The notes under the pieces are model-generated. The model saw nothing but the letters and a program-made list of their open reading frames with translations. It searched no databases and was not told the DNA's origin. A stretch of 6,810 nt of DNA from the NCBI GenBank assembly GCA_003168295.1, contig PMST01000038.1:1-6810 (forward strand). Direction: 5' to 3'. The DNA comes from Actinomycetota bacterium (GTDB lineage Bacteria > Actinomycetota > Actinomycetes > Streptosporangiales > Streptosporangiaceae). Position 1 is the first letter of the stretch. Each line of letters opens with the position of its first letter. This document shows positions 1-6,810 of the stretch, in pieces. A program made the position numbers and the translations under genes.

Positions 1-569
1 TCACGCTCCCATCGTCCCAGCCGCGAGGCGGTCTGGGCAAGCGAATGGAGGCCGGGGCGTGGGGTGCCGTCGCCGACGCCCTGGATAGGAGCTGGCCGAA
101 CCCGGTGGACCGCCAGGCACGGAAACACCGGCCACCTAGGCCGCCATGGAAGGCACGCCGGCGTCGGTCTGGACGTGTTAGGGCTACTGGCAGGACTCGC
201 AGGCCACCAGCGAGGCATTCGCAATGGGGACAAGCTATGGCGCGGATCCGTCGCGGATAACTTCCAGTATGGACGTCGAATGTTGCCTGATGTGATTTTC
301 GCTCCGCTCACGTTCCGGTGCGATAGCCGGCCGCAATGTTCGATGAGCGGGACGATCCGGTACTGAGGGCTTGGTGCGGCATCGTAAGCCCGATGGAAGA
401 ACCGGATCGACGTAAATGCATAGGCCGACCTGAGTGACGCTCGTTGCCCGTATTCACACCGTGGTCCTCTATGAGTCCGCTGAATTAGGCCTCTTCTGCG
501 GGTTGTTCGTGACTGCTGCCGCAGACGGCTAGTCGGTGACCTTCATCCTCAGCCGATAGGGGTCCGGGG
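1..569. other. Gene-poor region downstream of phaC
   Basis: No convincing gene is seen on either strand. The open frames here are short, rich in Arg/Pro/Gly and lack family motifs, and in-frame stops interrupt the other frames. It lies downstream of the phaC stop codon on the minus strand. Visible structure includes a nested inverted repeat (353-409, listed separately), a short ATCCG/CGGAT palindrome at 246-258 and a weak 4-bp GCCG/CGGC hairpin at 518-529 just past the phaC stop. It could be decayed coding DNA, but I recognise no family in the translations. Confidence 0.6.
353..409. other. Nested stem-loop downstream of phaC
   Basis: The outer arms are CGATCCGGT (353-361) and ACCGGATCG (401-409), perfect 9-bp complements. 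Nested inside are GGGCTT (367-372) and AAGCCC (386-391), perfect 6-bp complements around a 13-nt loop. The two stems are separated by a 5 x 9 nt internal loop. It lies about 160 bp beyond the phaC stop codon, so it could be a late 3' structure of the phaC transcript, a small structured RNA or a protein-binding site. There is no T-tract, so a classical intrinsic terminator is not supported. Confidence 0.4.
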
Positions 570-2228
570 CTATTCGACCACGTAGGTGCCAGGCGCCTCG
601 GTGAGCGGCGGGTACTGGCGGTTGCCGAGCGTCGCCCGGGCCGTCTTCTCGGGGCCGGAGCGCGCGATCAGCCACTCGGACCAGGGCCGCCACCACGAGC
701 TCTTCTCCATGGCGGCAGTCTTGACCCACTCGTCGGGATCCGCCGCCGTGGGCGGGCCGTACCAGCGGTCATAGCGCTCGCTGTCCGCCGGGTAGACGAC
801 CGACTGGATGTGACCTGAGCGAATCAGGGTCATCTCCGTGTTACTGCCGCCGACCAGATGGGCGGTGTCGTAGCAGGCCCGCCACGCCGTGATGTGGTCG
901 GTGTAACCACCGACGTGGTAGCTGTCGCAGGTGACCTTGCTGAAGTCGGTCTTGACGCCGAGCAGTGTCGGCCCGTTGCCGTCCCACCCGTCCATGGCCA
1001 GTCCGCTGGACTCCTTCGCGAACCTCGCCGTGGTCCGGGTGGCATCGTCGTTCCACGCCAGGACGTCGAACGGCGCGGGCGACTCGCCTTTGAGCCATCC
1101 GCTGACCAGGTAGTTGAACACCAGGTCGTTCGGCCGCAGCATGGCGAACAGGCTGCGCAGCGCGGTCCCGGGGACGATCTCGTTGTTGGCGGCGGCCTGC
1201 TCGAGGACAGTGCGCGCCTGGCTGGTGTCGAGCATGCCCACGACGTTCGGCTTGCCGCCGGTCAGCATGGTCACCACGAAGGTCGCCGCCCCGGCCGACT
1301 CATCGCCGATAGCGGCGTAGTGCGCGAGCACGTAGGAAAGCGTGATGCCGCCGGCGCACAGCCCGAGAAAGTTGATCTTGTCGCTGCGGGTGATCTTCTT
1401 GACCACCTCGTTGGCTCGCTCCTCCGCGGCGAGGTAGTCATCCAGTCCCCACTTCCCGTCGCCGCGCTGGGAGCTCGGGTTCCGCCAGACGACCATGAAA
1501 ACACCGAGGCCCTGGCTGACGGCGAACTCGGCCAGCGACCGCCCCGGCGAGAGATCCAGGATGTAGTGCCGGTTGATCTGCGGCGGGATCATCAGCAGCG
1601 GAATGCTGCGGACCTTGGGCGTGGTGGGCGTGTACTGCAGCAGCTCGAACATCTCGTCCCGGTACACCACGGCACCCGGGGTGGCGGCGATGTCCTTGCC
1701 GACGGTGAATTGCTTGCGGTCAGCCATGGATGGCATCCCGCCGCGGGCCATATCGTTCAGCATGTTCTGGGCGCCGCGCGCGAGCGACAGGCCGCTGGTC
1801 TCGATGGCCTTTCGCAGTGCCTCGGGGTTAGTGCCTAGATAGTTGGTCGGAGCCAGCGCGGCCGCGATGACGTCGGCCGCGAAGCGAGCGCGCGCTCTAT
1901 TCTGCCAGGAGCCGTCCACGCCCTGGTACATCCGCTCCATCCACATCTCGAACAGTCGGTAGGACTGGCCCATGGTGCGGAAATAGGGGATGCTTTGCCA
2001 CGCCTCATCGGCGAAGCGCTTGTCTCGCTTGTCGAACGAGATATCCGACTGCCCGAGCACGATCTTGGTAATTTCTTTGGCTAGCCACGGCATTTCCTTC
2101 GCGACAGCGGCGGGGTCGGCGAGATCGGCGATGGCGTTGACCATGTCCAGCGGCAGCATTCCGGCCGCTGTTTCGGTCGCCTCTGACATGATGTCCATGG
2201 CGCTGGTGGGTGCTTCGTTGGTGTCCAT
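570..2228 (-). CDS. phaC: Poly(3-hydroxyalkanoate) synthase (PhaC, class I-like)
   Basis: This enzyme polymerises (R)-3-hydroxyacyl-CoA into polyhydroxyalkanoate with release of CoA, acting at the surface of the growing granule. The predicted product is 552 residues, the usual size for a single-subunit class I synthase. The N-terminal PhaC_N-type region includes the block GKDIAATPGAVVYRDEMF (about 177-194). The alpha/beta-hydrolase part follows with PPQINRHYILDLSPGRS (215-231), VVWRNP (246-251), the lipase-like box GLCAGG with nucleophile Cys291, then FDVLAWNDDATR (387-398), GYTDHIT with Asp444, SGHIQS with His473, and SWWRPWSEWL (511-520). The Cys-Asp-His triad is intact, so the enzyme should be active. 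I chose the ATG at 2228 because GGGGAGG precedes it closely; the open frame continues 40 codons upstream to 2348, but that part lacks family similarity and runs into the regulatory element. Substrate chain length cannot be read from the sequence; the neighbouring thiolase and reductase suggest short-chain monomers. Confidence 0.96.
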   Translation of the reverse strand: MDTNEAPTSAMDIMSEATETAAGMLPLDMVNAIADLADPAAVAKEMPWLAKEITKIVLGQSDISFDKRDKRFADEAWQSIPYFRTMGQSYRLFEMWMERMYQGVDGSWQNRARARFAADVIAAALAPTNYLGTNPEALRKAIETSGLSLARGAQNMLNDMARGGMPSMADRKQFTVGKDIAATPGAVVYRDEMFELLQYTPTTPKVRSIPLLMIPPQINRHYILDLSPGRSLAEFAVSQGLGVFMVVWRNPSSQRGDGKWGLDDYLAAEERANEVVKKITRSDKINFLGLCAGGITLSYVLAHYAAIGDESAGAATFVVTMLTGGKPNVVGMLDTSQARTVLEQAAANNEIVPGTALRSLFAMLRPNDLVFNYLVSGWLKGESPAPFDVLAWNDDATRTTARFAKESSGLAMDGWDGNGPTLLGVKTDFSKVTCDSYHVGGYTDHITAWRACYDTAHLVGGSNTEMTLIRSGHIQSVVYPADSERYDRWYGPPTAADPDEWVKTAAMEKSSWWRPWSEWLIARSGPEKTARATLGNRQYPPLTEAPGTYVVE

Positions 2229-2231
2229 GAC

Positions 2232-2238
2232 CCTCCCC
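2232..2238 (-). promoter_or_regulatory. Ribosome binding site deciding the phaC start
   Basis: On the minus strand the sequence reads GGGGAGG, then GTC, then ATG at 2228. This purine-rich site supports the shorter 552-residue protein over the upstream in-frame ATG at 2348. That upstream ATG lies within the palindrome-bearing repeat R1, where translation start is unlikely. Confidence 0.65.
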
Positions 2239-2321
2239 GAGGGTGCTACAGGGCGGCCGATAGCGCTGGAAGCGCCGGGTCTGCCGGTCCGTAATCTCAC
2301 TGTTACAACGCCCCAGGGGGC

Positions 2322-2348
2322 GGTCAAGACCCCGATGGGCCCGGTCAA
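2322..2348 (-). promoter_or_regulatory. Possible phaC promoter (-35-like TTGACC elements)
   Basis: On the minus strand two TTGACC hexamers occur, at 2348-2343 and 2327-2322. The second is followed after 16 nt by TAACAG, a loose -10. The first directly abuts the perfect palindrome at 2350-2365, an arrangement in which a bound activator could contact polymerase. The -10 match is poor, so this is only a candidate for the phaC promoter. Confidence 0.3.
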
Positions 2349-2456
2349 AAGGGACTTAAGTCCCTAATGCGATGATCTATCGCTGGTTCTTGCTGGATCA
2401 CGGGACCGTAGCATCCGGGTTACGTGGCACCGGGCTAGAAGGGGCCGATGAGGCTG
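2334..2456 (+). repeat. Direct repeat R1 (promoter-like element, copy 1)
   Basis: This ~123-bp segment matches 6512-6632. The first 97 positions align without gaps at 80 of 97 identities, and the last part aligns with a 2-nt length difference. Shared blocks include GGGCCCGGTC, the palindrome GGGACTTAAGTCCC, TGCGATGA, GGATCACGGGACCGTA and TACGTGGCAC, ending with GAGGCTG, which in the second copy is part of the thiolase ribosome binding site. Here GAGGCTG is not followed by a start codon but by a CGCGGC/GCCGCG hairpin (2460-2477). The element points away from phaC, so it is either an orphan promoter whose gene was lost or a duplicate that now serves phaC divergently through its symmetric palindrome. 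Confidence 0.85.
2350..2365. promoter_or_regulatory. DosR/DevR-like box (perfect palindrome) upstream of phaC
   Basis: AGGGACTTAAGTCCCT is a perfect 16-bp palindrome. Its core GGGACTTAAGTCCC fits all 14 core positions of the mycobacterial DosR consensus TTSGGGACTWWAGTCCCSAA. The outer flanks fit less well. It is centred about 130 bp upstream of the phaC start. A half-site-like GGGACC follows at 2402-2407, also conserved in R2. The response regulator itself is not in the window; another NarL/LuxR-family regulator with similar specificity is possible. Confidence 0.7.
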
Positions 2457-2771
2457 TCTCGCGGCGGTCGAGCCGCGGACAGCTCTAGGCCGTCACCGTG
2501 GGTTCTATAGTTTGCGGATCGCCTGGCGAATTACCGCGCGATCCGGGACCTTTGGCCTTAGGCGCCACGCCGATGCTCCTAGCTCGGCTCCAGCGGTCAG
2601 AAAAGAACACAAAGCCATTTATCTTCGTACTCACGCCTTATGGGTTGGCGGACTTCGCATCTGGACTTCGCATCCGGATCTGGCTTTGCCTGGCTTGCCG
2701 GGCGATCTGGCGGCCGGGGATCCGGATCTTCATCCAGGCCGTGATGGCCGATATCAGGGAGATGCTCGTAC
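2457..2771. other. Intergenic stretch between R1 and the dehydrogenase relic
   Basis: No gene is recognised here. The two overlapping plus-strand frames of about 90 codons have no family motif. Visible elements are a 6-bp hairpin directly after R1 (2460-2477), a degenerate GGGACC box at 2545-2558, and a short tandem duplication of GGACTTCGCATC at 2650-2661 and 2663-2674. A GGGAG motif about 10 nt before the ATG at 2772 looks like the surviving ribosome binding site of the broken dehydrogenase gene. Confidence 0.5.
2543..2560 (+). promoter_or_regulatory. Degenerate DosR-like box upstream of dehydrogenase relic
   Basis: GGGACCTTTGGCCT (2545-2558) matches 10 of 14 core positions of the DosR consensus and keeps the GGGAC and GCC half-site pattern. 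It lies about 220 bp upstream of the relic start codon, further than is usual for an activator site. It may be a relic or a chance match. Its weight comes mainly from the other, stronger boxes in the same window. Confidence 0.35.
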
Positions 2772-2884
2772 ATGGACTTTGAGCTGACCGATGAGCAGGA
2801 ACTGGTCCGCGAGGCGGTAAAGGAGTTCGCCGACGCCGAGGCGCCTTCGCCCTGACCGAGCCCGCCGCGGGCACCGATGCCGCC
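2772..2884 (+). pseudogene. Acyl-CoA dehydrogenase remnant (internal deletion and frameshift)
   Basis: The ATG at 2772 opens MDFELTDEQELVREAVKEF, the typical N-terminus of a bacterial acyl-CoA dehydrogenase (flavoprotein oxidising acyl-CoA to 2-enoyl-CoA). This frame stops at 2853-2855. In a different frame from 2840 the sequence reads GAFALTEPAAGTDAA, the highly conserved active-site block (usually ALTEPxAGSDAA) found near residue 120 of intact enzymes. About 100 residues between the two blocks are therefore missing, and the junction shifts the frame. Similarity is lost after about 2884, although the second frame stays open to 3001 and overlaps the 3' end of the opposing small gene. The ~380-residue family length and flavin-binding C-terminal domain are absent, so the gene is dead. 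An upstream GGGAG suggests it was once expressed. Confidence 0.8.
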
Positions 2885-2966
2885 AAGGAAGCCGGGCTGC
2901 GCCGCAAAGAGCGCCGCCCCCGGCGCCCTGAAGTGGCACTACCCTGGACCGCGCCCGGCGACTGGT

Positions 2967-3227
2967 TCAGGTCCGGGGGCGTAGCTGCCCGCCGCTCCTG
3001 ATGGTGACCTCGCCGGTGCAGACGTCCATGCCCTCTACCGGGCCGGCGAACGCGCGACCGTCGCGGGTGGTGACCACCGCGAGGTCGCCAAGAAACCAGC
3101 GATCAGGCCAGAGCACCGGGACGCTGATCGTATCCTCGCCGGCTGCGATTTGGCTGGCGGTCAGGCTGCTCGCGATGCGGTGCTGCACCGTGTCCGTGAT
3201 GCCATCGACGTAAGGCTGTGCCGTCAT
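2967..3227 (-). CDS. Small protein of unknown function (86 aa)
   Basis: I do not recognise the family. The predicted 86-residue product starts MTAQPYVDGITDTVQHRIAS, continues through a segment with alternating hydrophobic residues (ISVPVLWPDRWFLGDLAVVT), and ends in a Gly/Thr/Val-rich stretch (GRAFAGPVEGMDVCTGEVTI) suggestive of a small beta-rich domain. It has no signal peptide or membrane segment and a single Cys. The ATG at 3227 was chosen because AGGGAGA (3234-3240) lies 6 nt upstream on the minus strand; the open frame extends 37 codons further, into AT-rich promoter-like DNA. It sits on the same strand as phaC and the CoA-transferase but is separated from both by long gaps, so it is probably its own transcription unit. 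The good ribosome binding site and protein-like composition argue that it is real. Confidence 0.7.
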   Translation of the reverse strand: MTAQPYVDGITDTVQHRIASSLTASQIAAGEDTISVPVLWPDRWFLGDLAVVTTRDGRAFAGPVEGMDVCTGEVTIRSGGQLRPRT

Positions 3228-3299
3228 CGCTTGTCTCCCTTTTGCGTGGTTTGCTAAGTGAATGCAGCATGCTGGCTGGCCAAGAGATATTTCCGTGAT

Positions 3300-3305
3300 A
3301 TTATC
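3300..3305 (-). promoter_or_regulatory. Possible -10 element of the 86-aa gene
   Basis: On the minus strand the sequence reads GATAAT within CAGATAATATCACGG, in an AT-rich patch about 75 bp upstream of the ATG at 3227. No good -35 hexamer is visible at standard spacing. The call rests only on the hexamer match and the local drop in GC. Confidence 0.25.
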
Positions 3306-3629
3306 TGTGAGCACCATTTCGATCTCTCCCGGGCCCACTGTGCCGACAATTTCATCATCTTATATTCGGGACGGCCGAAGACAAGGACGAGGTTGCCTAG
3401 GACCTCGGGCGTCGCTCAGATCGGGCTCTTTGACCTGCGAAAACGCACCTCAAAAATTATCAATTCTTGTTGTTGTCTACCCGGTGGAAGCGTGTAAACA
3501 AGGCGTCCGCTGGGGACTGCTGATTGGCCTGGGACTGATGTTCTCCTCGATCCAGACGATAAACACGGCGGGATTGTGCCGCTCGGGACAGGCGGGTGGT
3601 GCCTAGGCCGCCGTACTCATGCCGTCATC

Positions 3630-3656
3630 CTCTAATTGATGAATCATTTATTAGAG
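3630..3656. promoter_or_regulatory. AT-rich inverted repeat, candidate operator
   Basis: CTCTAAT (3630-3636) and ATTAGAG (3650-3656) are perfect 7-bp complements separated by 13 bp, with TGATGAATCA in the spacer, itself partly symmetric. The centre-to-centre distance of the arms is 20 bp, about two helical turns, as expected for a dimeric repressor site. It is an island of AT in a GC-rich genome. No regulator gene is adjacent, so its partner is unknown. Confidence 0.4.
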
Positions 3657-3681
3657 AATGGCCGGCGGCGCTTCAGTGGGG

Positions 3682-3756
3682 CTTTCTCATTCCCGGCGGC
3701 GGCACGCCGCGACGTCACCAGACCGTGACGAACCCGTCACGACCAGGATGAGAAAG
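3682..3756. other. Branched fold-back element with alternative hairpins
   Basis: The outer arms CTTTCTCAT (3682-3690) and ATGAGAAAG (3748-3756) pair perfectly over 9 bp. Inside are GCGGC/GCCGC (3696-3700 with 3706-3710), and three GTCAC/GTGAC-type arms: CGTCAC (3713-3718), CGTGACG (3724-3730) and CGTCACG (3735-3741). The middle arm can pair with either neighbour, giving two mutually exclusive hairpins. The element lies downstream of the CoA-transferase on its transcribed strand. It may be a structured RNA or a cluster of binding sites. It is not a tRNA: there is no D-arm or T-arm arrangement. Confidence 0.4.
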
Positions 3757-3819
3757 GGCTCACCGGTCACTGACCTTTCGGGACGCTCAACTCACGCCAG
3801 CGGTGGCGAGGTCGAGCTT

Positions 3820-3844
3820 GGGGTGGGCCGGGACCTCCCACCCC
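3820..3844 (-). terminator. GC-rich hairpin after CoA-transferase
   Basis: GGGGTGGG (3820-3827) and CCCACCCC (3837-3844) form a perfect 8-bp stem with a 9-nt loop. It is about 75 bp beyond the CoA-transferase stop codon on the minus strand. No U-tract follows, which is common for actinobacterial hairpin terminators, so it is a candidate only. Confidence 0.45.
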
Positions 3845-3918
3845 CGGGCGCGCCGGTCAGCTCGCCAAGGCCACCCACGTACTGCAGCTCCGCGAAGCAT
3901 AACCAGGATGGAAAAGGC

Positions 3919-5439
3919 TCAGTGCGGCCGCATGCTGCCGTCGCGCAGGTACCGTACGTGCCACGACAATGCCTCGTTGAGCAGGTGCGGGGTGTGCTTG
4001 CCGGGTCCGGTGGCAGTCGCCCGGTCGAGGTAGTCCTGCAGGGCCGGCCGGTAGTCGGGGTGCGCGCAGTGGTCGATGATCTGCTGGGCTCGGCGCCGCG
4101 GCGGCAAGCCGCGCAGGTCGGCGACGCCCTGCTCGGTGATGATGACATGTACGTCGTGCTCGGTGTGGTCGACGTGGCTGACCATCGGCACAATGCACGA
4201 GATCGACGCGTTCTTGGCGGTCGAGGGGGACAGGAACATCGCTAGGTAGGCGTTGCGGGCGAAATCGCCGGAGCCGCCGATGCCGTTCTGCATGCTCGAG
4301 CCCATGATGTGGGTGGAGTTCACGTTGCCGTAGATGTCGGCCTCGATCATGCCGTTCATCGCCAGGCAGCCGAGCCGGCGTATAACCTCCGGGTGGTTGC
4401 TGATCTCCTGCGGGCGAAGGATGATCTGGTGGCGGTAGTCCGCGATACCGGCGTGCAGGTCGGCGATGCCGTCCTGGCTGAGGGAAAAGCCTGTCGCTGA
4501 GGCGATGGTCATCGCGCCTGAGCGCAGCAGTTGCAGCATGCCGTCTTGGACCACCTCGGTGTAGGCCGTTAGCGGCGGGAACGCCCCACCGTCAAGCCCG
4601 GCGAGCACGGCGTTGGCGATGTTGCCGACGCCGGACTGCAGCGGCGGCAGCGTGGCGGGTAGCCGCCCGCGCCGTACTTCGTGGGTCAGGAAGTCCAGGA
4701 CGTGCCCGGCGATCAGCCGCGAGTCCTCGTCAGCCGGTCTGGACGGGGCGCTGTAATCCGGTTCGTGTGTCGGGACGACGGCGATGATTTTCTCCGGCGG
4801 GCAGTGCAGGTAGGGCGTGCCGATCCGGTCGGACGGCGTGACGATCTGGATCGGTGCGCGGTGCGGGAGCAGCGCGGAGCCATGCAAAACGTCGTGCATT
4901 CCCTCCAGCTCGGCGGGCTGCCAGGAGTTGACCTCAAGGATCACCCGGTCGGCCATGTCGATCCATGTTGTGTTGCTCCCCACCGAGGAGGACGGGATCA
5001 GCGCCCCGTCGGCGGTGATGCCGGTCACCTCGATGAGCGCGACGTCGAGGTGACCGAAGACGCCTTCGGCGACCATCTGCGCGACGTGCGACAGGTGCAC
5101 GTCCACGTAGTCCAGCAGCCCCGCGTTGATCTTGGCGCGGGTCACCGGGTCGGACTGGTAGGGCATGCGCAGATCGATTCCGCCTGCCGCCGCCAGCGCA
5201 CCGTCCAGCTGCGGCGCGGTAGACGAGCCGGTCCAGACGCCGACCGTAAAGCGGTCACCGCGTTCGGCCGCCTCGGTGATCCGGGCGACCAGCGCGGTCG
5301 GCACCGCCTTCGGATGGCCAGAACCGGTGAATCCGCTCATCCCGACGTTGTCACCCGGCGCGATGAACGTGGCTGCGTCTTCAGCTGGCATCACCTTGTC
5401 AGCAAGGGCCTTGTACCGCAGCCGCGACTGGTCTGTCAT
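3919..5439 (-). CDS. Acetyl-CoA hydrolase/succinate CoA-transferase family enzyme
   Basis: This is a class I CoA-transferase of the AarC/Cat1/Ach1 type, which moves CoA between carboxylic acids such as succinate, acetate and propionate through a glutamyl-CoA intermediate in the cytosol. The 506-residue product is full length for the family (about 500). Landmarks in order: GMSGFTGSGHPK near the N-terminus (33-44), PSSSVGSNTTW (149-159), LQSGVGNIANAVL (267-279), TEVVQDGML (294-302) whose Glu295 is the likely catalytic glutamate, GGSGDFARNA (388-397), and IVPMVSHVDHTEHDV with ITEQGVADLRG (416-445) and CAHPDYRP (458-465). The ATG at 5439 is preferred over the one at 5460 because GGGAG lies 8 nt upstream of it. 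It is transcribed divergently from the reductase gene. The specific acyl partners cannot be read from sequence; an acetyl-CoA:succinate or propionyl-CoA:succinate exchange, or a 4-hydroxybutyrate CoA-transferase role, would all fit a PHA island. Confidence 0.92.
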   Translation of the reverse strand: MTDQSRLRYKALADKVMPAEDAATFIAPGDNVGMSGFTGSGHPKAVPTALVARITEAAERGDRFTVGVWTGSSTAPQLDGALAAAGGIDLRMPYQSDPVTRAKINAGLLDYVDVHLSHVAQMVAEGVFGHLDVALIEVTGITADGALIPSSSVGSNTTWIDMADRVILEVNSWQPAELEGMHDVLHGSALLPHRAPIQIVTPSDRIGTPYLHCPPEKIIAVVPTHEPDYSAPSRPADEDSRLIAGHVLDFLTHEVRRGRLPATLPPLQSGVGNIANAVLAGLDGGAFPPLTAYTEVVQDGMLQLLRSGAMTIASATGFSLSQDGIADLHAGIADYRHQIILRPQEISNHPEVIRRLGCLAMNGMIEADIYGNVNSTHIMGSSMQNGIGGSGDFARNAYLAMFLSPSTAKNASISCIVPMVSHVDHTEHDVHVIITEQGVADLRGLPPRRRAQQIIDHCAHPDYRPALQDYLDRATATGPGKHTPHLLNEALSWHVRYLRDGSMRPH

Positions 5440-5447
5440 CCCGCATG

Positions 5448-5452
5448 CTCCC
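5448..5452 (-). promoter_or_regulatory. Ribosome binding site deciding the CoA-transferase start
   Basis: GGGAG on the minus strand is spaced 8 nt from the ATG at 5439. The in-frame ATG seven codons upstream (5460) has no comparable purine-rich site. The family similarity begins downstream of both. Confidence 0.55.
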
Positions 5453-5568
5453 GTCCGCATCCCGGAGGCCTAGCCAGGCTGCGTGCGCCGCAGGACCCTT
5501 CCCCGGTCATGAGTGCTCACTTTACGGGTGGGTGCGAGCCAGCTATGTAGCACCGGCTCCGATCCCCA

Positions 5569-5598
5569 GGGACCGTCACGGTAAGGGACCAAAGCCAC
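5569..5598. promoter_or_regulatory. Tandem GGGACC boxes, DosR-like
   Basis: GGGACC starts at 5569 and again at 5585, 16 bp apart. The second site, GGGACCAAAGCCAC (5585-5598), matches 11 of 14 core positions of the DosR consensus. The first, GGGACCGT, is the same 8-mer found in R1 (2402) and R2 (6580). Pairs of sites are the usual architecture of DosR-controlled promoters. The pair is 120-150 bp from each of the divergent start codons, so it could serve either gene or both. Confidence 0.5.
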
Positions 5599-5719
5599 TA
5601 GCCAGCGAAAAGCCGCGGACGTACGACGAATTACGTACAGCACATGCCGCCGACCGACGAAGGCCGACCCGGCGAGCACCGCGGCCCGCGCAGATAAAAA
5701 GATAATAAGAGGAGACCCG

Positions 5720-6472
5720 ATGTCAGAGAGAATCGCGATTGTGACCGGAGCGGCCCGCGGCATAGGCGCGGGGACGGCTGTCAGGCTGGCCGCCGACGGT
5801 ATGGCCGTGGCCGTCCTCGACCTGAACGAAGCCGACTGCGCCGCAACGGTGAAGGAGATCGAGAACGCCGGCGGGCGTGCGCTCGCGGTCGGCGCCGACG
5901 TCAGCCAGACCGATCAGGCGAATGCTGCGGTCGAGCGGGTGGCCGCCGAGCTGGGCGCGCCGACGGTGCTGGTCAACAACGCCGGGATAACCCGCGACGC
6001 CATGCTGTTCAAGATGACCGACGAGCAATGGGACTCGGTGATCGCCGTCAACCTGCGCGGCCCGTTCCTGATGACCAGGGCGATCCAGAAGTACATGAGC
6101 GAGCAGAAATGGGGGCGGATCGTCAACATCTCGTCGTCGTCGGGGCTCGGCAACCGCGGGCAGGCCAACTACTCCGCCACCAAGGCCGGCGTGGAGGGCT
6201 TCACCAAGACGCTCGCCAAGGAGCTGGGTAAGTTCGGGATCACCGCGAACGCGGTCGCGCCGCACTTCATCGCCACCGACATGACCGCGAACATGGCCAC
6301 CAGCCTGAAGATGTCGTTCGAGGAGCTGGTGGAGACCTACAAGAAGCAGATAGCCGTAAACCGGGTCGGCCAGCCGGCCGACGTGGCGGCCGCTATTTCC
6401 TTCCTGGTCGGCGAGGACGCGGGCTTCGTCTCCGGCCAGGTCATCTACGTGGCGGGCGGCCCCCTGTGCTGA
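5720..6472 (+). CDS. SDR reductase, FabG-like (3-oxoacyl-ACP / acetoacetyl-CoA reductase)
   Basis: This is a short-chain dehydrogenase that reduces a 3-oxoacyl thioester to the (R)-3-hydroxyacyl form. Beside phaC and a thiolase the likely job is acetoacetyl-CoA reduction (the PhaB step), although FabG-type reduction of ACP substrates cannot be excluded. The 250-residue product is full length. The Rossmann motif TGAARGIG is at 9-16, NNAG at 86-89, and the catalytic set is Asn111, Ser138, Tyr151 and Lys155 (YSATK), at the positions seen in E. coli FabG. Asp34 at the end of the second beta strand (AVLDLNE) is typical of NAD(H)-preferring SDRs, whereas most FabG/PhaB enzymes use NADPH. A segment around 187-215 (MTANMATSLKMSFEELVETY) forms a longer substrate loop, and the protein ends VAGGPLC. 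AGGAGA (5710-5715) gives a clear ribosome binding site. A hairpin follows the stop, so it is probably a separate unit from the thiolase. Confidence 0.92.
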   Translation: MSERIAIVTGAARGIGAGTAVRLAADGMAVAVLDLNEADCAATVKEIENAGGRALAVGADVSQTDQANAAVERVAAELGAPTVLVNNAGITRDAMLFKMTDEQWDSVIAVNLRGPFLMTRAIQKYMSEQKWGRIVNISSSSGLGNRGQANYSATKAGVEGFTKTLAKELGKFGITANAVAPHFIATDMTANMATSLKMSFEELVETYKKQIAVNRVGQPADVAAAISFLVGEDAGFVSGQVIYVAGGPLC

Positions 6473-6484
6473 CCCACGACTTCT

Positions 6485-6501
6485 TGGCGCCCCCTGCGCC
6501 A
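6485..6501 (+). terminator. Hairpin after the reductase gene
   Basis: TGGCGC (6485-6490) and GCGCCA (6496-6501) form a perfect 6-bp stem around a 5-nt loop, 12 nt after the reductase stop. No T-tract follows. Its position just before the R2 promoter element suggests it separates the reductase and thiolase transcription units. Confidence 0.5.
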
Positions 6502-6511
6502 CTCAAGCCTG

Positions 6512-6632
6512 GGTGGGCCCGGTCCAAAGGGACTTAAGTCCCCAGTGCGATGACCTATGGCCGGTTTCCGTCGGATCACGGGACCGTAACGTCCGCACTA
6601 CGTGGCACGAGGCCACACGGCCGAGGAGGCTG
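6512..6632 (+). repeat. Direct repeat R2 (thiolase promoter element, copy 2)
   Basis: This is the second copy of the ~120-bp element at 2334-2456, in the same orientation 4178 bp away. It spans the gap between the reductase hairpin and the thiolase ribosome binding site (GAGGAGG, 6624-6629 region). It carries GGGACTTAAGTCCC at 6529-6542 and GGGACCGTAACGTCC at 6580-6594, followed by TACGTG (6599-6604), which is conserved in both copies and could be part of a -10. Here the element is correctly placed to drive a gene, so this copy is probably the functional one. Confidence 0.85.
6529..6542. promoter_or_regulatory. DosR/DevR-like box (perfect palindrome) upstream of thiolase
   Basis: GGGACTTAAGTCCC is a perfect 14-bp palindrome fitting every core position of the mycobacterial DosR consensus. 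It is centred about 103 bp before the thiolase start. A second GGGACC/GTCC element lies at 6580-6594, but its half-site spacing is 2 bp longer than canonical, so only the first site is a strong call. Confidence 0.7.
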
Positions 6633-6638
6633 AGAATC

Positions 6639-6810
6639 ATGGAAGACGTATTTGTTCTGTCTGGTGTCAGGACCCCGATCGGCAAGTTCGGCGGTGGCCT
6701 GGCCTCCGTCCCGCCCTGTGATCTGGCCGCGAAGGTGGTGCGCGAGGCGGTCAGCCGGTCGGGCGTGGACCCGGCTCAGGTGGGCCACGTGGTGTTCGGC
6801 AACGTGCTGC
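6639..6810 (+). CDS. Acetyl-CoA acetyltransferase (thiolase), 5' part only
   Basis: The frame from ATG 6639 runs off the window after 57 codons. The product begins MEDVFVLSGVRTPIGKFGGG, the characteristic N-terminus of biosynthetic/degradative thiolases (VxxxRTPxGxFGG), and continues LAAKVVREAVSRSGVDPAQVGHVVFGNVL, also typical. The family condenses two acetyl-CoA into acetoacetyl-CoA or cleaves 3-ketoacyl-CoA. The acylated Cys (near residue 90) and the C-terminal His/Cys motifs lie beyond the window, so integrity cannot be judged. GAGGAGG nine nt upstream is a strong ribosome binding site. Next to a reductase and phaC it is the likely PhaA-type first step. Confidence 0.93.
   Translation, partial: MEDVFVLSGVRTPIGKFGGGLASVPPCDLAAKVVREAVSRSGVDPAQVGHVVFGNVL

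Follow-up and report, generated by a model that had tools for sequence, protein, structure and literature searches.

A DosR-like palindrome within a duplicated promoter at polyhydroxybutyrate-type genes of a Streptosporangiaceae bacterium and its possible role in their co-activation

Could an actinobacterium outside the mycobacteria have placed polyhydroxybutyrate (PHB) synthesis under a regulator of the DosR/DevR type? The question is raised by a stretch of 6,810 nucleotides from a member of the Streptosporangiaceae (assembly GCA_003168295.1, contig PMST01000038.1, positions 1 to 6,810), here called the window, in which two copies of the palindrome GGGACTTAAGTCCC lie near the gene of a polyhydroxyalkanoate (PHA) synthase, phaC, and near a thiolase gene. 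A sequence-only reading of this DNA had proposed that PHB-type pathway genes are wired to a DosR-like regulator responding to hypoxia or nitric oxide (NO). Our analysis confirms the observation of the sites as true and non-random and shows the number of independent sites being overstated. Control by a DosR-type activator of the NarL family would be the likeliest reading of these sites.

Both palindromes are present as the sequence-only reading had them, at 2351-2364 and 6529-6542, each readable on both strands, with centres 129.5 bp before the phaC ATG (copy 1) and 103.5 bp before the thiolase ATG (copy 2). They are the only sequences in the window within three mismatches of GGGACTTAAGTCCC, for which 0.21 are expected. 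Compared with GGGACTTNNGNCCCT, given in passages of PMC6448022 as the stringent DosR consensus used for M. smegmatis, copy 1 matches without mismatch on both strands (2350/2351) and copy 2 on one strand (6528). Allowing up to two mismatches to this consensus yields six strand hits at four places (2351, 2545, 5584, 6528), all of them outside recognised genes, compared to a mean of 0.58 in 60 shuffles of the window; the background of fetched DNA (221 loci, 2,234,293 bases) holds 109 such sites, none exact, corresponding to 0.33 per 6810 bases. The exact 14-mer is rare, being found in none of 246 genomes in a phylum draw. The place at 2545-2559 (plus strand, GGGACCTTTGGCCTT, two mismatches to the stringent consensus) was absent from the sequence-only reading and precedes an acyl-CoA dehydrogenase remnant. 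With looser patterns, the window contains 11 strand hits of the weak consensus RRGNCYWNNGNMM compared to 3.3, several lying within genes, and for GGGACTWWAGTCCC with up to four mismatches it is not richer than its shuffles (10 hits vs 9.8). We class the palindrome with the mycobacterial sites and not with those bound by OsdR of Streptomyces. A matrix built from 26 OsdR sites tabulated in the part of PMC5069765 available to us ranks the palindromes first and second in the window with 10.2 and 8.8 bits.

The two palindromes lie within one direct repeat (2336-2442 and 6514-6620), the copies of which are identical at 86 of 107 positions (80%), and they have to be counted as one observation, leaving three places with a stringent site. 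A gapped alignment extends the homology up to the ribosome site of the thiolase, and both palindromes descend, as read from this alignment, from one promoter. Promoter module copy 2 (6514-6638, plus strand) contains the palindrome, a GTA element and the ribosome site GAGGAGG and precedes the thiolase. Module copy 1 (2336-2460, plus strand) carries GTAGCAT where copy 2 has GTAACGT, its ribosome site is eroded to GATGAGG, and a start codon is missing from the corresponding place. Placing the palindromes upstream of phaC and of the thiolase was right as to their positions, but the module of copy 1 is directed away from phaC. The sequence-only reading had furthermore joined three regulatory regions by their sites, the third one lying between the divergent genes of a CoA-transferase and a reductase. 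The sites are all there, i.e. the 8-mer GGGACCGT at 2402, 5569 and 6580 as well as the GGGACC tandem at 5569/5585, the better member of which, GGGACCAAAGCCAC at 5585-5598 (both strands), agrees with GGGACTWWAGTCCC at 11 of 14 positions (three mismatches), but two of the regions are copies of a single promoter and the third is weak, with the candidate site GGGACCGTCACGGT at 5569-5582 (both strands) reaching -9.5 bits with the OsdR matrix. The recurrence of GGGACCGT is partly due to the duplication, since its occurrences at 2402 and 6580 lie in the same repeat. As a DosR site in its own right GGGACCGT was rejected because of poor matrix scores (-8.6 bits at 2402, -9.5 at 5569 and -12.4 at 6580) and because a single duplicated element accounts for two of its three occurrences. 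Between the copies, all 14 bases of the palindrome are unchanged while 21 of 107 positions differ elsewhere (P 0.037), and palindrome and 8-mer are jointly unchanged with P 0.004; both had been named by the sequence-only reading ahead of this comparison. This mildly favours that the phaC-side copy may have retained a function.

The geometry of the putative promoters adds a further shared feature. A GTA element, the putative -10 region, is found at the thiolase 57 nt away from the palindrome's first base (GTAACGT, 6586-6592, plus strand), 58 nt from the palindrome on the phaC side (GTAACAGT, 2299-2306, minus strand) and 57 nt from the 5569 site at the CoA-transferase (GTAAAGTG, 5518-5525, minus strand). 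GTAA at a distance of 56-58 nt occurs for 0.59% of 3538 other point-directions in the non-coding DNA of the window, and the spacing recurs in two of the eight site-directions not used to define the element (P about 0.001). The element and the distances were picked post hoc, after inspection, and the support from the spacing is moderate for this reason as well as for the weakness of the 5569 site and the non-canonical -10 sequence GTAACAGT. If the GTA element represents the -10 region, the palindrome would be positioned near -63. On the same presumed starts, a degenerate box, ATGACCTATGGCCG, read by eye at 6550-6563, would lie near -42, a position expected for a proximal DevR site. The passages available of PMC3029386 describe DevR target promoters as having closely packed boxes, the proximal one overlapping the -35 region.

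These observations support a model according to which a response regulator of the DosR/DevR type, belonging to the NarL family, would jointly activate the thiolase, phaC and possibly also the CoA-transferase and the reductase divergent from it, acting via the 14-bp palindrome approximately 63 bp before the transcription start. In this model a duplicate of the thiolase promoter came to lie beside phaC and lost the gene it once preceded, but its palindrome was kept and would now serve as an upstream site of phaC. We consider this account, taken as a whole as co-activation of PHB genes by a DosR/DevR-type regulator via a palindrome copied to phaC, to be evenly poised between right and wrong. With the regulator switched on, by low oxygen or NO as analogy to the mycobacterial system would suggest, acetyl-CoA would flow into a polymer of 3-hydroxybutyrate with consumption of reducing equivalents, and the CoA-transferase would form acetyl-CoA and succinate from acetate and succinyl-CoA. 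The more far-reaching version, in which this little-sampled soil lineage uses an oxygen/NO dormancy regulon to turn on PHB synthesis together with succinyl-CoA:acetate CoA transfer, providing a sink for electrons and carbon, phaC having been recruited by copying the complete thiolase promoter, is possible but doubtful. If it holds true, dormancy programmes of soil actinobacteria could use PHB as a store of reducing power, controlled by a two-component system responding to oxygen/NO; this would parallel the storage-lipid response known from mycobacteria as well as the regulation of PHB by Anr/Fnr in proteobacteria. The promoter duplication would then clearly exemplify how copying of a promoter can bring a gene into a regulon.

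Several results weigh against DosR-type control of these genes. Among the upstream regions of 84 other actinobacterial phaC genes only three contain a stringent site compared to 4.7 in shuffles; the weak consensus is present in 25 compared to 18.0 (sd 3.3) and GGGACTWWAGTCCC with up to three mismatches in three compared to 2.0. These 84 distinct segments, a part of all matches, were taken from the loci of the PhaC search (a single PhaC being used from each locus, with repeats as well as short flanks discarded) and from 40 further places. Two of 28 actinobacterial CoA-transferase upstream regions have a site (compared to 1.0), and none of 47 other CoA-transferase upstream regions has one (compared to 1.4). 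Within the window, the CoA-transferase has a weak candidate site, and the GTA element of phaC departs from a canonical -10 region. With the OsdR matrix the palindromes score below every OsdR site (all at least 12.2 bits) and not above the best scores of shuffled sequence (mean 9.0, 95% 13.7). Run-length tests on the two promoter copies are not significant (P 0.36 for the longest run, P 0.11 for the three longest), and no syntenic relative having this gene arrangement was detected in the genomes searched. We rejected a general link of DosR to actinobacterial phaC genes, which the stringent site leaves unsupported, and likewise a general link to CoA-transferase genes; a DosR box there is not a general actinobacterial trait, and the wiring, if it exists, would seem to be peculiar to this lineage. 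The proposed wiring of the PHB genes is partly supported, by the exact match to the stringent consensus and the shared spacing of 57-58 nt. Separately, locus L130 (G965) shows two close DosR-like sites, GGGACGAAAGTCCT and GGGACGAAGGTCCT, upstream of a different PhaC gene, and locus L001, from a metagenome-assembled genome (MAG) of the Pseudonocardiales, carries GGGACGTCCGGCCCT (8865-8879, one mismatch to GGGACTTNNGNCCCT) approximately 41 bp upstream of where a related CoA-transferase is estimated to start.

The same sites could be explained otherwise. Another NarL/DevR-family regulator might read the palindrome, so that the genes would be co-regulated in response to a different signal, for example an excess of carbon or nutrient stress. 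Actinobacteria carry many DevR-like paralogues, and the evidence for the regulator's identity consists in the site, which is of the mycobacterial and not of the OsdR type. Yet the stringent DosR consensus is matched exactly, and the one other two-component system that we met, PolS-PolR, has a different site, GTTCACnnnnnGTTCaC, in the passages available of PMC6754071; we rate this alternative as unlikely. Distinctly improbable is a local regulator dedicated to PHB that binds the palindrome, the likeness to a DosR box being a result of convergence. The best sites do cluster at the PHB genes of the window, and dedicated PHA regulators exist in other bacteria according to the portions of reviews at hand, but no such regulator was recognised among the window genes and the fourth site, at 2545, precedes the acyl-CoA dehydrogenase remnant instead of a PHB gene. 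That the thiolase promoter alone is functional, copy 1 being a relic through which phaC is not controlled, is very improbable: orientation and erosion of copy 1, the outcome of the run-length tests and the decay of the region beyond it, evident from the acyl-CoA dehydrogenase remnants lying there, agree with a relic, but the palindrome is intact despite the 21 changes and GTAACAGT lies 58 nt away facing phaC.

How does co-activation by a DosR/DevR-type regulator compare to known systems? The closest regulators are DosR of mycobacteria and OsdR of Streptomyces. In mycobacteria, DosR switches on triacylglycerol synthesis. The window resembles the mycobacterial regulon in its palindrome, which equals the stringent M. 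smegmatis consensus, and in having several boxes per promoter region, as reported in passages of PMC3029386, where the storage-lipid gene tgs1 is named as a DevR target. The systems differ in that triacylglycerol synthase is the target there and PHB genes would be the targets here, in the lineage, and in that the link is predicted here from sites. OsdR of Streptomyces coelicolor is likewise a DevR-like regulator with a palindromic site from a related order, and the window site GGGACCTTTGGCCTT resembles AGGGACCTTCGGCCCC of SCO0167 and SCO0216, all according to the parts of PMC5069765 at hand. In contrast, the OsdR sites shown there are mostly of the GGGCC type, the window palindromes score below all of them, and the predicted OsdR target table does not contain a PHA synthase. 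Oxygen-linked control of phaC is described for Pseudomonas and Herbaspirillum in passages of PMC9049629 and PMC7204398, in which oxygen-sensitive Anr/Fnr activates phaC and PHB aids redox balance. A similar oxygen-linked control of phaC and a redox role of PHB would apply to the window if the model holds. Anr/Fnr belongs to the iron-sulphur Fnr type and not to the two-component NarL family, acts in another phylum and recognises another site. PolR of Microlunatus was rejected as reader of the palindrome because its consensus differs. Literature searches, covering few subscription journals, retrieved no paper recognisable from its title or passages as treating the control of PHA genes by DosR and none on PHA in Streptosporangiaceae; the available passages of the comparative actinobacterial paper PMC3388012 contain nothing on PHB.

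The genes themselves are consistent with a PHB pathway, with the assignments differing in firmness. phaC (570-2228, minus strand; PhaC_N PF07167) encodes a PHA synthase of 552 residues, the catalytic triad of which, C291, D444 and H473, is invariant in 26 of 26 homologues and aligned to solved synthases. The scpC-type succinyl-CoA:acetate CoA-transferase (3919-5439, minus strand) scores above the cut-offs of NF053853 (707.9 bits, cut-off 500) and TIGR03458 (753 bits, cut-off 658.7); its open reading frame extends to 5460, and alignments of homologues suggest that the start is probably at 5439. Family and curated-model searches identify the gene at 5720-6472 (plus strand) as a FabG/PhaB-type reductase of the short-chain dehydrogenase/reductase (SDR) superfamily. 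PhaC reaches 440.7 bits with the class I model TIGR01838 (cut-off 622.65) and the reductase 237.6 bits with the acetoacetyl-CoA reductase model TIGR01829 (cut-off 302.1), both being below the cut-offs, which leaves the class of the PHA synthase open and makes acetoacetyl-CoA the presumed substrate of the reductase on account of its gene neighbours. In the reductase an aspartate closes strand beta-2 (LDLNE), and in classical SDRs an aspartate at the end of this strand points to NADH. The thiolase gene begins at 6639 (plus strand) and runs to the window end at 6810, so that its N-terminal 57 residues are contained, matching Thiolase_N PF00108 and BktB/PhaA-type models. No regulator gene was recognised among the genes of the window in family and model scans. 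At 2772-2941 (plus strand) two acyl-CoA dehydrogenase pieces in different frames give weak Pfam matches (E 0.067 and 0.056); they read as a decayed gene with promoter copy 1 and the 2545 site upstream of it.

Relatives of this PhaC are numerous in environmental data. Out of 7999 scored candidates the PhaC search retained 2375 proteins; the 120 matches listed are 84-100% identical. At least 120 PhaC clusters of 84-100% identity are present in metagenome and MAG data, on contigs of up to 547 kb, and none was found by patterns in reference genome contigs; this PhaC represents a widespread synthase lineage missing from the reference genome-contig set. The pattern derived from the PhaC alignment matched 39 stretches in reference genome contigs and 46 in viral contigs, none of the former encoding a relative by tblastn and none of the latter being one. 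An extended box pattern had no match in viral contigs and window positions 2334-2450 none in plasmids, and the 217 plasmid records retrieved with PhaC are all below 60% identity. Searching reference genome contigs with a piece of the CoA-transferase left 80 loci, the best PhaC among which is 37% identical. In whole-genome draws, which overlap as the same genomes recur, the PhaC alignment matched 4 of 13 genomes at E <=0.001, none of 51 at 1e-60, 17 of 296 and 4 of 198 at 1e-80, 11 of 329 at 1e-110, 3 of 5 and 65 of 298 at 1e-120 and none of 396 at 1e-150. Among the aligned loci, those from the 1e-110 search being left out, the best match is 43.6% identical across its full length and 51% within residues 69-255. 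The PhaC_N family occurs in 7 of 31 relatives of G006.

Between phaC and the CoA-transferase, a gene at 2967-3227 (minus strand) encodes a small protein of 86 residues without a Pfam match. Its alignment matched none of 70 genomes, and one homologue from a Streptosporangiaceae MAG (P0195) is among the 120 matches listed. In total, 302 homologues were obtained from 308 candidates, many on MAG contigs, with no function given in any source listed and with the motifs YVDGxTxTV and PDRW being conserved.

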